From contig NZ_QGGP01000002.1 of assembly GCF_003148645.1 (NCBI RefSeq), forward strand, positions 293,525 to 357,524: DNA of 64,000 nt, read 5' to 3'. The notes below the pieces were generated by a model. It ran no database searches, had not been told where the DNA came from, and was given only the letters and a program-made list of their open reading frames with translations. Every line of letters begins with the position of its first letter. Positions within the stretch are counted from its first letter, which is position 1. Shown piece after piece: positions 8,938 through 23,684 of this stretch. Position numbers and translations under genes: made by a program. This DNA comes from Xanthomarina spongicola (GTDB lineage Bacteria; Bacteroidota; Bacteroidia; Flavobacteriales; Flavobacteriaceae).

Positions 8938-9510
8938 CTAAAATCCTTCAAAAACAGTCCTTTTAATTTCAGCCCATTCCTCTTTTAAAATGCCATAACA
9001 ACATGTACTGCGTTTAAAACCATCTTGCATGAGTGTGTCCTTTCTTAAAACACCTTCAAGGGTTGCTCCAATTTTTTCAACAGCCTTTCTGGAACGTGAA
9101 TTACGTTCATCGATTCTAAATTCTACTTTGTCAAATTTTAAAACTTCAAATGCATATTGTAACATTAAAAATTTCATCTGTTTATTTAATCCAGAACCAT
9201 GAAACTCTTTACCAATCCATGTCCAACCAATATGTAGTAGTTTGTTCTTCCAATTTATAAATCCAAATCGAGTGCTTCCAGCATAGGCTTGTTTGGTTTT
9301 ATCGTAAATAATAAATGGAATGGTTGTTTTGTTATAATAACCATCTACAGCAGTTTGCACGTATTCTTTAAGTGCTTCTGGTGTTGAAATATCGCTAGGT
9401 GAGTAGAAGATGAGATCTTTTTCTTTTGCAATATCTTGAAGATGTTTGTAGTTACTCAAATCCAATAAGGAGAGTTTTACATAAGTATTTTCTAAATGTG
9501 GTGCTGTCAT
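8938..9510 (-). CDS. GNAT N-acetyltransferase, RimJ/RimL type
   Basis: The 190-residue protein has the acetyl-CoA-dependent GNAT fold of the ribosomal-protein acetyltransferase (RimJ/RimL) branch. It begins HLENTYVKLSLLDLSNYKHL, has the central strand 'IGWTWIGKEFHGSGLNKQMK' (the acetyl-CoA loop, about residues 90-110), then 'LKFDKVEFRIDERNSRSRKA' and 'VEKIGATLEGVLRK', typical of this group. The acceptor could be a protein N-terminus or a small amine and cannot be told from sequence. A REP-like palindrome lies 10 bases upstream of its start, between it and the GIY-YIG gene, leaving no obvious promoter of its own. Confidence 0.85.
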   Translation of the reverse strand: MTAPHLENTYVKLSLLDLSNYKHLQDIAKEKDLIFYSPSDISTPEALKEYVQTAVDGYYNKTTIPFIIYDKTKQAYAGSTRFGFINWKNKLLHIGWTWIGKEFHGSGLNKQMKFLMLQYAFEVLKFDKVEFRIDERNSRSRKAVEKIGATLEGVLRKDTLMQDGFKRSTCCYGILKEEWAEIKRTVFEGF

Positions 9511-9520
9511 AATAATTTAC

Positions 9521-9562
9521 CGTCATTGCGAATCCAGACCTAAGTCTGGATGTGGCAATCTG
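9521..9562 (-). repeat. REP-like palindrome, downstream copy
   Basis: The + strand reads CGTCATTGCG at one end and GGCAATCTG at the other. ATTGC (9525-9529) can pair with GCAAT (9555-9559), and an inner hairpin ATCCAGAC / GTCTGGAT with a four-base loop sits inside. The ends match those of the four tandem copies at 9913-10078 but in opposite orientation, and the inner stem differs. Confidence 0.8.
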
Positions 9563-9582
9563 TTTATTTTGTTCTAATATAT

Positions 9583-9885
9583 TTAAGTATCGAATTTAAA
9601 AAGCCAACCATCAGATAAATCATTCCAATTAGGATTCTCTCTGTTTATTAAGTCTTCTTTTCGCTTTCTATTTCCTTTTTTTATTTGTTTTTCTCTAACT
9701 ATTGCTTCATTTATTGAAGTAAATTCTTCAAAGTAAACCAATTTATTACAGTTATATTTTGTTGTAAAACCTTTATATGTTTCGTTTTTATGTTCAAAGA
9801 CTCTTTTTATTAAATGATCAGTAACACCAACATACAGAGTGGTATTATTTTTATTTGTCATAAAGTAAACATACGATGTTTTCAT
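9583..9885 (-). CDS. Single-domain GIY-YIG endonuclease family protein
   Basis: The 100-residue protein consists of little more than the GIY-YIG nuclease fold. 'YVYFMTNKNNTTLYVGVTDHL' in two pieces gives the two core strands (the YVY...YVG variant of GIY-YIG at residues 4-17). Next come the conserved Arg of 'LIKRVFEHKN', the 'CNKLVYFEEF' strand, and the metal-binding Glu of 'AIVREKQIKK', ending with NPNWNDLSDGW. The domain cuts DNA with one metal ion. I chose the ATG at 9885. A longer frame up to 9951 exists, but its extra 22 residues are only translation of the adjacent repeat. The gene lies between REP-like palindromes, which suggests a functional link. Confidence 0.85.
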   Translation of the reverse strand: MKTSYVYFMTNKNNTTLYVGVTDHLIKRVFEHKNETYKGFTTKYNCNKLVYFEEFTSINEAIVREKQIKKGNRKRKEDLINRENPNWNDLSDGWLFKFDT

Positions 9886-9912
9886 TAGTTTTGTAATAGA
9901 TGTTCTATTGAG

Positions 9913-10078
9913 AGATTGCCACGTCGCAAGCTCCTCGCAATGACGTTTCAATTAAGAGGTTGCCACGTCGTAAACTCTTGGCAATGGCGTTTAAGTATGA
10001 GAGATTGCCACGTCGCAAGCTCCTCGCAATGACGTTTCAATTAAGAGATTGCCACGTCGTGAACTCCTCGCAATGACG
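9913..10078 (+). repeat. Four tandem REP-like palindromes
   Basis: Four 33-base units start at 9913, 9957, 10002 and 10046, a period of 44-45 bases. Each runs from AGATTGCCACGTCG to GCAATGACG (the second copy is degenerate, AGGTTGCC...GGCAATGGCG), with ATTGC and GCAAT able to pair. The 11-12 base linkers are near-identical (TTTCAATTAAG twice, TTTAAGTATGAG once). The last copy ends 7 bases before the stop codon of the gene at 10085. The orientation is opposite to the copy at 9521-9562. Confidence 0.9.
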
Positions 10079-10084
10079 TTTGCT

Positions 10085-10720
10085 TTATACCAGAGCATTA
10101 ATAAGTTCTACATTAACAATATGTTTCCCTTCAAAAGGAATAATTTCTAGTGCATTCCCAAATAAATCATTAGTTCTTTGGGTTTCATGTACAATGCGTT
10201 CTTCATTTAAATATTCGTCCTTTGTGCCATAAATCATGGTTACTTTGGCATTTAGAAAACTAAAATCTTCTGGAGTTAACTCTTTTGGAATTCCTCCAGA
10301 ATGTAGTACCATTTGAGAACATGGTAATTTTCTTTTGGCAACATATCTCATTGCTACACTAACACCTTGAGAATATCCAAAAATTATTAAATTTTTATCA
10401 TTTGGTAATTGCTCTGCTTCAAAAACAGCATCAAAATATCGCATCACATTTTCAGTTTCTTTAAGCGTATTTTCTTTAGTTAACCAACTTGCACCAACAT
10501 GTTTAAATTTTGGTGGAATGTAATATTTACTTTGTGCTTGTGGAGCAATTACATAATTTTCATCTGCATTCAATCCACTAAAATATCTTAAAAAATAACG
10601 ACTTAAAAACCCCATGCCATGACATACAAACCAAATGTTTTTAGTTTTATCTGTTAAAGTATTTATGGTAGCATAACTATTGGTAGTTGTATAGGATATT
10701 TCTTTTTCTTCTAAATTCAT
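10085..10720 (-). CDS. Alpha/beta hydrolase (phospholipase/carboxylesterase type)
   Basis: The 211-residue cytoplasmic serine hydrolase has the nucleophile elbow FGYSQGVS (Ser near residue 117), a probable catalytic Asp in MIYGTKDEYLN and a His in FEGKHIVNVE near the C-terminus, as in the small carboxylesterase family. It diverges from the menaquinone thioesterase and menF-menD across only 41 bases, so both sides probably share a promoter region. MenH, the alpha/beta hydrolase of menaquinone synthesis, is otherwise missing here. This protein might fill that step, but it looks more like a general esterase than a typical MenH. Family certain, role open. Confidence 0.75.
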   Translation of the reverse strand: MNLEEKEISYTTTNSYATINTLTDKTKNIWFVCHGMGFLSRYFLRYFSGLNADENYVIAPQAQSKYYIPPKFKHVGASWLTKENTLKETENVMRYFDAVFEAEQLPNDKNLIIFGYSQGVSVAMRYVAKRKLPCSQMVLHSGGIPKELTPEDFSFLNAKVTMIYGTKDEYLNEERIVHETQRTNDLFGNALEIIPFEGKHIVNVELINALV

Positions 10721-22595: not shown

Positions 22596-23684
22596 TTGAC
22601 ACCTACTTTTAATAAAGTTCATAATAAATTCAAATTAAACAATTCAAACTATACCTTTGAAGAGTTAAAGGATGTTGCTTATAGTTTAATTAAAGAAGGA
22701 AAACCATTTGAAAAAGCCCTTGGCGATTTTCTTGCAGATTGGTTAGATCCTAGAGATTATGTTAGAACCAAATCCTCTGGAACTACAGGAAGGCCAAAAA
22801 CCATTAAGATTAAAAAGCAGGCTATGGTAAATTCTGCCATTGCAACTGGAAATTATTTTGGTTTAAAGCCTGGAGATAAGGCTTTGCACTGTTTGCCAAC
22901 TCAATTTATTGCTGGAAAAATGATGCTTGTTCGTGCCATTATTTTAGGCCTTCAGGTAGATGTTATAGAGCCAACAACAGTTTTACAATTCAGTACAAAA
23001 AAGCATTACGATTTCTGTGCTATGATACCAATGCAGCTTCAGAATAACATTAAAAAGCTAAATAACATAAAAAAACTAATTGTTGGTGGAGCGCCAATTT
23101 CATCACTTTTATTAGAGCAAATTCAGCCTTTAAGAACAGAAATACATGCTACTTATGGTATGACAGAAACGATTACTCATATTGCTGTAAAAAAACTCAA
23201 TAATTTTATGTCATTGCAAGGAGTAACGAGTCAATCTGTTGAATTAGCTTGTTTTAGAACTCTTCCAAATATAAAAATCTCTCAAGATGAAAGGGACTGT
23301 TTAGTTATTGAGGCACCAAGCCTAACTAAAGAAAAAATTATTACTAACGATGTGGTTAAAATTCATTCTGAAACAGAATTTGAATGGTTAGGACGTTTTG
23401 ATAATGTTATAAACTCTGGTGGCATCAAGTTTTTTCCGGAATTAATAGAAGATAAAATTAAAAGTAAAATACAGAGTCGTTTTTTTATAGCTTCAGAGAA
23501 AGATGAAACACTAGGTGAAAAGCTAATTCTTATTTTAGAAGGTGAAGTAAACAATTTAACAAATACAGTTTTCAAAGATTTAGATAAATACGAAACTCCA
23601 AAGAAAATCTATGTCGTTCCAAAATTCATTGAAACAACTTCAGGTAAGATTCAACGGTTAAAGACGTTGGCAACTATTAAATAA
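22596..23684 (+). CDS. menE: o-Succinylbenzoate-CoA ligase
   Basis: This AMP-forming ligase activates o-succinylbenzoate with CoA for MenB. At 362 residues it is shorter than the usual 450-490, as in other Bacteroidota, because N-terminal subdomains are reduced. Motifs: VRTKSSGTTGRPKTIKI near residue 55 (P-loop), HATYGMTETITHIAVKK near 188, WLGRFDNVINSGGIKFFPE near 265 and TTSGKIQRLKTL at the end (catalytic Lys). The only plausible start is the TTG at 22596, six bases after the protease stop; the next ATG would remove the P-loop. It ends one base before the convergent DoxX gene, leaving no room for a terminator. Confidence 0.92.
   Translation: MTPTFNKVHNKFKLNNSNYTFEELKDVAYSLIKEGKPFEKALGDFLADWLDPRDYVRTKSSGTTGRPKTIKIKKQAMVNSAIATGNYFGLKPGDKALHCLPTQFIAGKMMLVRAIILGLQVDVIEPTTVLQFSTKKHYDFCAMIPMQLQNNIKKLNNIKKLIVGGAPISSLLLEQIQPLRTEIHATYGMTETITHIAVKKLNNFMSLQGVTSQSVELACFRTLPNIKISQDERDCLVIEAPSLTKEKIITNDVVKIHSETEFEWLGRFDNVINSGGIKFFPELIEDKIKSKIQSRFFIASEKDETLGEKLILILEGEVNNLTNTVFKDLDKYETPKKIYVVPKFIETTSGKIQRLKTLATIK

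Follow-up and report, generated by a model that had tools for sequence, protein, structure and literature searches.

A 558-bp block of the Xanthomarina spongicola genome, in which the gene for a 100-residue GIY-YIG nuclease is enclosed by short CGTC-tagged REP repeats, is likely a small mobile element (probability roughly 0.7) consisting of the gene together with its own REPs, similar to a RAYT REPtron but with a different enzyme. The association of gene and repeats, the orientation of the tags, the pairing of each paralogue with its own REPs, the covariation of repeat and protein, and presence/absence polymorphism among congeners are shown; cleavage and mobilisation by the enzyme are inferred. 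Positions given below are those of the window, by which we mean the whole 64,000-nucleotide stretch of DNA that was analysed, and the features of the locus are as follows.

9521–10078, no strand: entire unit (REP – GIY-YIG gene – REP array), CGTC tags outermost on either side
9583–9885, minus strand: GIY-YIG nuclease gene, 100 aa plus stop (PF01541 match, conserved residues, AF2 model)
9521–9561, plus strand: downstream REP of the CGTC type; interior palindrome of its own, folding as DNA to a hairpin of −10.5 kcal/mol (z −4.5)
9913–9945, minus strand: upstream CGTC-type REP 1, adjoining the gene
9957–9989, minus strand: upstream CGTC-type REP 2, both ends degenerate
10002–10034, minus strand: upstream CGTC-type REP 3
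10046–10078, minus strand: upstream CGTC-type REP 4, outer end of the unit
9909–9992, no strand: duplicated two-REP unit, first copy (repeat family D1)
9998–10081, no strand: duplicated two-REP unit, second copy, 94% identical (repeat family D1)
8938–9510, minus strand: host gene bordering the insertion, GNAT-acetyltransferase-like
10085–10720, minus strand: host gene bordering the insertion, hydrolase-like

The nuclease gene runs through codons 9586–9885 of the minus strand, with its stop at 9583–9585, and encodes 100 residues from an ATG. A longer, TTG-started reading frame of 122 aa was rejected as the true gene, its extra N-terminus being the translated adjacent REP; at window positions 9886–9951, calling frames from TTG yields the false N-terminus MKRHCEELATWQSL..., which is REP read as protein. 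The bordering host genes are GNAT-acetyltransferase-like (8938–9510) and hydrolase-like (10085–10720), names inferred from sequence alone.

An earlier note, made from the sequence alone, had described five palindromes with shared ends around this gene, four in tandem upstream and one inverted downstream. The five repeats held, with four upstream of the gene in the same orientation and one downstream in the opposite orientation, and several details changed. The four upstream REPs are one two-REP unit of 84 nt present twice, at a spacing of 89 nt and with 94% identity; the ends are not shared throughout, the copy at 9957–9989 being degenerate at both; and 'palindrome' applies only in part. When folded as DNA and compared with shuffled sequences, the downstream copy forms a stable hairpin (z −4.5), whereas the three upstream copies that were folded did no better than shuffles (z −0.45, −0.45 and +0.51), which makes the term generous for them. 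The downstream REP has the ends CGTCATTGCGA...TGGCAATCT in common with the upstream copies, and its interior differs from theirs and is a perfect palindrome. The tag is CGTC in four of the five window REPs and CGCC in one, and their outer stem, ATTGC/GCAAT, starts with AT. All are built from this 5-bp outer stem and a variable interior; an 8–9-bp stem with a 4–5-nt loop was not met in them. The 11-mer CGTCATTGCGA occurs ten times in the 3.16 Mb of the X. spongicola genome and the reversed control pattern once; as four of the ten copies fall within the 558-bp block, the clustering exceeds chance. A lone degenerate copy of the window repeat, TGTCATTGCAAGGAGTAACGAGTCAATCT, lies at 23209–23237.

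The protein matches the GIY-YIG domain model PF01541 at 54.4 bits (cut-off 22.6), and no other Pfam domain was found in its 100 residues at an E-value of 0.001. Its AF2 model shows a compact, confident fold (pLDDT 93.4, pTM 0.84), to which the nearest solved structures are UPF0213 (1zg2, Foldseek E-value 2e-4), the GIY-YIG domain of UvrC and then Slx1; the first two are alike in fold but only 23–30% identical in sequence. Across 145–158 aligned proteins, Y7, Y18, G20, R28, H32 and E65 are conserved at 98–100% and N84 at 93%. The conserved Tyr/Tyr-Gly, Arg, His, Glu and Asn of GIY-YIG nucleases have catalytic roles. Since these catalytic-type residues are nearly invariant, the protein is probably an active nuclease, an inference from residue conservation in which cleavage itself is inferred. 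Other known families were considered and rejected, the NCBIfam match to a group I intron endonuclease lying below its cut-off and the PADLOC matches being weak only. The HUH motif and catalytic tyrosine of Y1_Tnp were not met in the GIY-YIG protein, and lacking both a Y1 domain and a GTAG tag, the system is not a RAYT. A search of the X. spongicola genome for the Y1 transposase domain (PF01797) returned no match, and no Y1/RAYT gene was found there.

The same genome contains eleven GIY-YIG matches. Six small genes (L011, L012, L013, L014, L016 and L020, the last a pseudogene) are flanked by palindromes, as judged by eye, and the repeat families differ between genes: ATTGC at L014, ATGCTGAA/ACACTGAA at L016, two others at L012 and L013, and TTCCTGC repeats without a clear tag at L011 and L020. 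The remaining five (L015, L017, L018, L019 and L021) yielded one single-sided REP call in total; UvrC is among them, as judged by length and position in the family, and at this gene (L017) no GTC-tagged REP was called upstream or downstream. Dispersed ATTGC-type copies in the genome have constant ends and variable interiors; four of the ten exact CGTCATTGCGA matches contain a perfectly paired interior stem of 5 bp or more. These ten are the unbiased set; a wider typing of 30 ATTGC-type copies, 18 of them with interior stems of at least 5 bp, used a hand-chosen and biased set. ATTGC-type REPs at L001–L010 and in genomes G044, G047 and G049 likewise combine constant ends with many interiors, some of them perfect palindromes with T-rich, terminator-like loops, and this exchange of interiors is unexplained. 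Separately, L020, L092, L094, L097 and L099 appear to represent a single old insertion common to several flavobacteria, before the same downstream gene, in which the REPs are decayed or missing.

Relatives were gathered with a search alignment (A1) of three X. spongicola paralogues already known to be palindrome-flanked, which recovered 469 relatives from GTDB contigs, and the best 80 were kept. Both the seed and this selection lean the survey toward the REP-flanked trait; the within-genome swaps, covariation and empty sites described below do not rest on the biased sample. Hairpins with a GTC tag were concentrated beside the gene, with 22 upstream and 32 downstream within 200 bp, against 0–10 in each of the other 200-bp bins out to 4 kb. 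Using a fixed caller, GTC-tagged REPs within 200 bp were found on both sides of the gene at 51 of 90 loci (90 of 94 loci entered this count) and on at least one side at 71, compared with 5 both-sided calls among 611 control geometries of equal size, taken from these loci no closer than 1 kb to the gene. At most of the 19 loci without a call, degenerate copies were still visible by eye.

Comparing the two flanks of each gene directly, we found a similarity score of at least 40 in 46 of 73 genes, against 30/718 mismatched loci and 7/252 other ORFs (73 of the 80 loci were used; those at contig ends or containing N were dropped). In inverted orientation, the same score was reached by 17 of 73 genes, 31/718 mismatched loci and 2/252 other ORFs. 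A classical TIR transposon with simple inverted-repeat flanks was rejected on this basis, inverted similarity being less frequent than direct. The repeated stretches are REPIN-like units, each comprising a tagged REP, a spacer and an inverted REP; in L037, for example, the repeat spans 167 nt at 98%, and in L042 it spans 374 nt at 91%.

A plasmid collection provided 33 matching records. Fourteen loci were fetched, and eleven had matching REPs on both sides, judged by eye and with some tags degenerate: in Azospirillum lipoferum, Sinorhizobium meliloti, Neisseria, Aeromonas, Novosphingobium, two Shinella, Rhizobium CIAT894, Sphingobium, Planktothrix (a cyanobacterium) and Spirosoma. REP flanks were weak or negative at the other three fetched loci (Photobacterium, Rhizobium K1/93 and Sinorhizobium C101). 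REPs at the Azospirillum, Sinorhizobium and Rhizobium loci do resemble the form with an 8–9-bp stem and a 4–5-nt loop, and tags at the surveyed loci and in the window were CGTC/TGTC, not GTAG. Two plasmid genes have conspicuous neighbours: the REP-flanked GIY-YIG gene of A. lipoferum (L152) sits between sufB and sufC, in a row of iron-sulphur cluster assembly genes, and that of Planktothrix agardhii (L155) between an MmeI-type restriction enzyme gene and the DISARM gene drmA.

Pairing between enzyme and REP was examined in 63 genes from 22 genomes of the family, comprising 57 of 60 hand-chosen places (L174, L177 and L189 were dropped) and six loci of X. spongicola itself. The upstream and downstream flanks of the same gene matched (score of at least 50) in 28 of 63 genes, while swapping paralogues within a genome, such that the upstream flank of one was compared with the downstream flank of another, gave no match in 184 comparisons (Mann-Whitney p 2e-24). 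The result persisted when matches below 56 bits were excluded (25/53 same-gene against 0/118 swaps). The signal does not extend to every gene of the set: flank similarity scored below 36 in 26 of 63, and a REP was called on both sides in only 25. Across genomes, protein similarity correlated with REP similarity (r=0.38), against 0.03 ± 0.04 in within-genome shuffles, of which none in 2,000 reached the observed value; with orthologue-like pairs removed and scores capped, the correlation was 0.41, and again no shuffle of 2,000 attained it. Each paralogue in a genome thus tends to carry its own REP family, which is shown as an association. As a control, other small GIY-YIG classes (20 low-scoring places chosen, 17 used) had REPs on both sides in none of 17 loci, compared with the 25 of 63 in the REP-flanked family.

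In a different small GIY-YIG class (L015 and L019 in X. spongicola, L268–L287 in relatives), 12 of 22 loci have a tRNA gene no more than about 150 bp away. Similar flanks (score of at least 50) were present in 8 of 17 loci of this class, and L015 has a partial tRNA copy on its other side. In the REP-flanked set a tRNA gene was equally close at 3 of 58 loci, all three with matches below 56 bits. It is possible that the tRNA-adjoining class is a sister element that targets tRNA genes.

At the level of whole genomes, we tabulated 60 genomes, one per genus except one, of which 25 have an A1 match of at least 80 bits and are termed strong. These statistics carry no phylogenetic correction, and the score cut-offs for the ATTGC-type comparison were set after seeing the data, four having been tried. 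ATTGC-type REPs were present in two or more copies in 17 of 25 strong genomes against 8 of 35 others (p=6e-4), and any of three REP types in 21 of 25 against 10 of 35 (p=2e-5), gene-adjacent copies being included in both counts. Copies within 1 kb of the gene could be removed only for AYRCTGAA and ATTCCTGC, the types with complete lists. After removal, AYRCTGAA copies remained in 12 of 25 strong genomes against 2 of 35 (p=3e-4); for ATTCCTGC the difference was not significant (9/25 against 5/35, p=0.07). Proximity was in excess of expectation for both types: 20 of 67 AYRCTGAA copies (0.10 expected) and 7 of 73 ATTCCTGC copies (0.17 expected) had a family gene no more than 1 kb away. Dispersed AYRCTGAA copies, more than 1 kb from the gene, occurred in all eight genomes whose gene carries AYRCTGAA, compared with 4 of the 17 other strong genomes. 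The strict ATTCCTGC pattern had no match in the X. spongicola genome, though its L011 and L020 carry a tag-less version.

The co-occurrence is incomplete in both directions. REPs without a detected enzyme were found in G016, G037, G051, G059 and others, with ATTGC-type matches and no strong enzyme match in the single-contig G059 (nine) and in G016 (24; 91% complete). Seven of the 25 strong genomes lack an ATTGC-type match, five of which carry another tested type. In three REP clusters of enzyme-less genomes (L132–L134), no alternative nuclease was obvious and only ordinary genes were seen.

Next, presence and absence were compared among congeners. Seven other species of the genus were searched, and five (G060, G061, G063, G064 and G038) have orthologues of the border genes. 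The block 9521–10078 is missing from the orthologous hydrolase/GNAT junction in all five; there the two genes are adjacent, with a stop-to-start gap of 3–9 bp that holds no GIY-YIG gene and no REP, against 574 bp in X. spongicola. By its appearance, the block was likely inserted as one unit. A second GIY-YIG element of X. spongicola, L016, could be compared in four congeners: it is absent from G061 and G062, whose sites also lack REPs, and is represented by shortened remnants in G063 and G038. As the empty sites at the window locus (five) and at L016 (two) lack REPs too, REPs and gene seem to arrive together. Inspected for a homing target, the empty sites contain no REP and no obvious target or duplication. 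No clear target-site duplication was found at the window or L016 junctions; short A/T-rich matches at some junctions (for example, TCATTTT at L016) were inconsistent, and a shared duplication was rejected. Repeats without a gene also vary: the solitary REP L002 is present with its flanks in G063 and G038 and its stretch is skipped in alignments of G060, G061, G064 and G065, and where X. spongicola has the REP pair L010, G063 has 27 bp instead and other congeners carry different repeats.

These results support the reading of a RAYT-like arrangement with a different enzyme that the earlier note had put forward, while the binding, nicking and transposition it envisaged are not proven. The enrichment of REPs at GIY-YIG genes across genomes is strong, the repeats are not equally frequent in genomes without the family, their ends vary in step with the protein, and orthologous loci include empty sites, as that note had proposed. 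Its description of REPs inverted about the gene held in part, the usual layout being richer, with REPIN-like units directly repeated on both sides.

Presence/absence polymorphism, outermost tags, dedicated pairing and covariation are all what would be expected if the enzyme mobilised its own REPs, in the way that RAYTs mobilise GTAG REPs. In the mechanism we propose, which is inferred throughout, the nuclease would recognise its cognate REP, probably through the hairpin base and the unpaired CGTC tag, and would nick or cut there. Breaks at REPs would then release or copy single REPs, REP pairs or REP-gene-REP units, which host repair and recombination would join elsewhere; the joining is assigned to the host because a GIY-YIG enzyme hydrolyses DNA and would not join it by itself. 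Finally, cutting within an array followed by recombination between repeats may amplify units, for which there is a precedent in SegB, a GIY-YIG enzyme that brings about segmental amplification of neighbouring DNA via breaks and homologous recombination (PMC13096335). Such amplification would account for the REPIN-like units that recur in direct orientation on both sides of the gene, as well as for the tandem duplication in the window.

The family loci that we read come from Bacteroidota, Chloroflexota, Pseudomonadota, Cyanobacteriota and candidate phyla. A bolder reading, to which we incline by a small margin, is that the CGTC-tagged REP superfamily has, across several phyla, its dedicated mobilising enzymes in small GIY-YIG nucleases. 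These would form a second class of REP system, one without a transposase, where the tagged hairpin would be read by a hydrolytic nuclease and host recombination would perform joining and array growth.

Among known systems, the closest parallel is RAYT-REP (REPtrons; TnpA-REP, of the IS200/IS605 group), in which one small nuclease gene likewise lies between short tagged palindromes of its own family, further REPs and inverted REP pairs are dispersed through the genome, and several enzyme-REP pairs occur per genome. It differs in that the enzyme here is a hydrolytic GIY-YIG protein rather than an HUH-Y1 transposase, the tag is CGTC/TGTC rather than GTAG, and the flanks are commonly direct repeats of REPIN-like units. 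REPINs are reported to consist of two opposite REPs around a spacer that replicate as one unit (Bertels and Rainey 2011, PMC3116915); the units here share this layout, whereas the known cases have a GTAG tag and a RAYT enzyme. The repeats themselves belong to, or closely resemble, the CGTC-tagged REPs of Di Nocera et al. 2013 (PMC3733652), who treat dRS3 of Neisseria and two RPE families of Rickettsia as CGTC repeats and conclude that a dedicated transposase for these REPs is apparently lacking. The terminal CGTC/TGTC tag, the AT at the start of the stem and the frequent inverted dimers with spacers are common to both, and Azospirillum lipoferum, Sinorhizobium meliloti and Neisseria, named there, have family loci flanked by such REPs here. 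The window's ATTGC type differs in its build: where those REPs have an 8–9-bp stem and a 4–5-nt loop, it has an outer stem of 5 bp, then an internal loop and an interior that varies. No associated enzyme was reported in that study. The free-standing GIY-YIG homing endonucleases of T-even phages (Seg, including SegB) belong to the same catalytic superfamily, but are phage enzymes near tRNA genes, with no REP family described in the relevant parts of PMC13096335. We found no report of a GIY-YIG-REP link in the literature searched, in which subscription papers and preprints were mostly outside the scope.

The main rival is homing or hitchhiking, whereby REPs spread by other means and a free-standing, homing-type GIY-YIG gene uses them as insertion sites or homology. 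In its favour, GIY-YIG enzymes are classic homing endonucleases (PMC1564403), REPs exist without the gene, direct-repeat flanks fit a duplicated target, and the tRNA-adjoining sister class, with its often repeated flanks, resembles the use of a fixed target. Against it, the empty sites at the window locus (5/5) and L016 (two) are free of REPs, each paralogue has its own REP family, and dispersal is found mainly in genomes whose gene carries that REP, as seen for one REP type. The empty sites do not exclude this explanation, which we nevertheless consider unlikely.

Less plausible still, the REPs could be ordinary intergenic hairpins, serving as terminators or mRNA stabilisers, that share tolerant spaces with small dispensable genes without any functional link. 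REPs in gene-less genomes do sit between ordinary genes, and the T-rich interiors of several X. spongicola copies look terminator-like; however, this view predicts neither the paralogue-specific pairing and protein covariation nor the absence of REPs at other GIY-YIG classes and at Y1 genes, and we strongly disfavour it. A Y1/RAYT transposase acting in trans on CGTC REPs has some support, in that Y1_Tnp proteins occur in 27 of 60 relatives, where REPs are a little more frequent than in the rest (15/27 against 10/33, p=0.07), but is very unlikely and was rejected as a hidden partner: none was found in the X. spongicola genome, 20 hand-picked Y1 loci in relatives had GTC-tagged REPs on both sides in no case (upstream in one, downstream in four), Y1-less genomes had REPs in two or more copies in 7 of 14 cases with GIY-YIG against 3 of 19 without, and Di Nocera et al. 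likewise report no such link for CGTC REPs (PMC3733652).

REPs are among the commonest repeats of bacteria, and their enzyme, RAYT, is known for the GTAG class. If, as we prefer to read the data, the GIY-YIG nuclease is the partner of CGTC REPs, the open question of their enzyme could be tested directly, since only a short oligonucleotide and the 100-residue protein would be needed, and the many pairs of paralogue and REP would offer a natural set of cognate and non-cognate combinations. It would also mean that two unrelated nuclease folds have entered into partnership with REPs, and that repeats may spread by a hydrolytic route.
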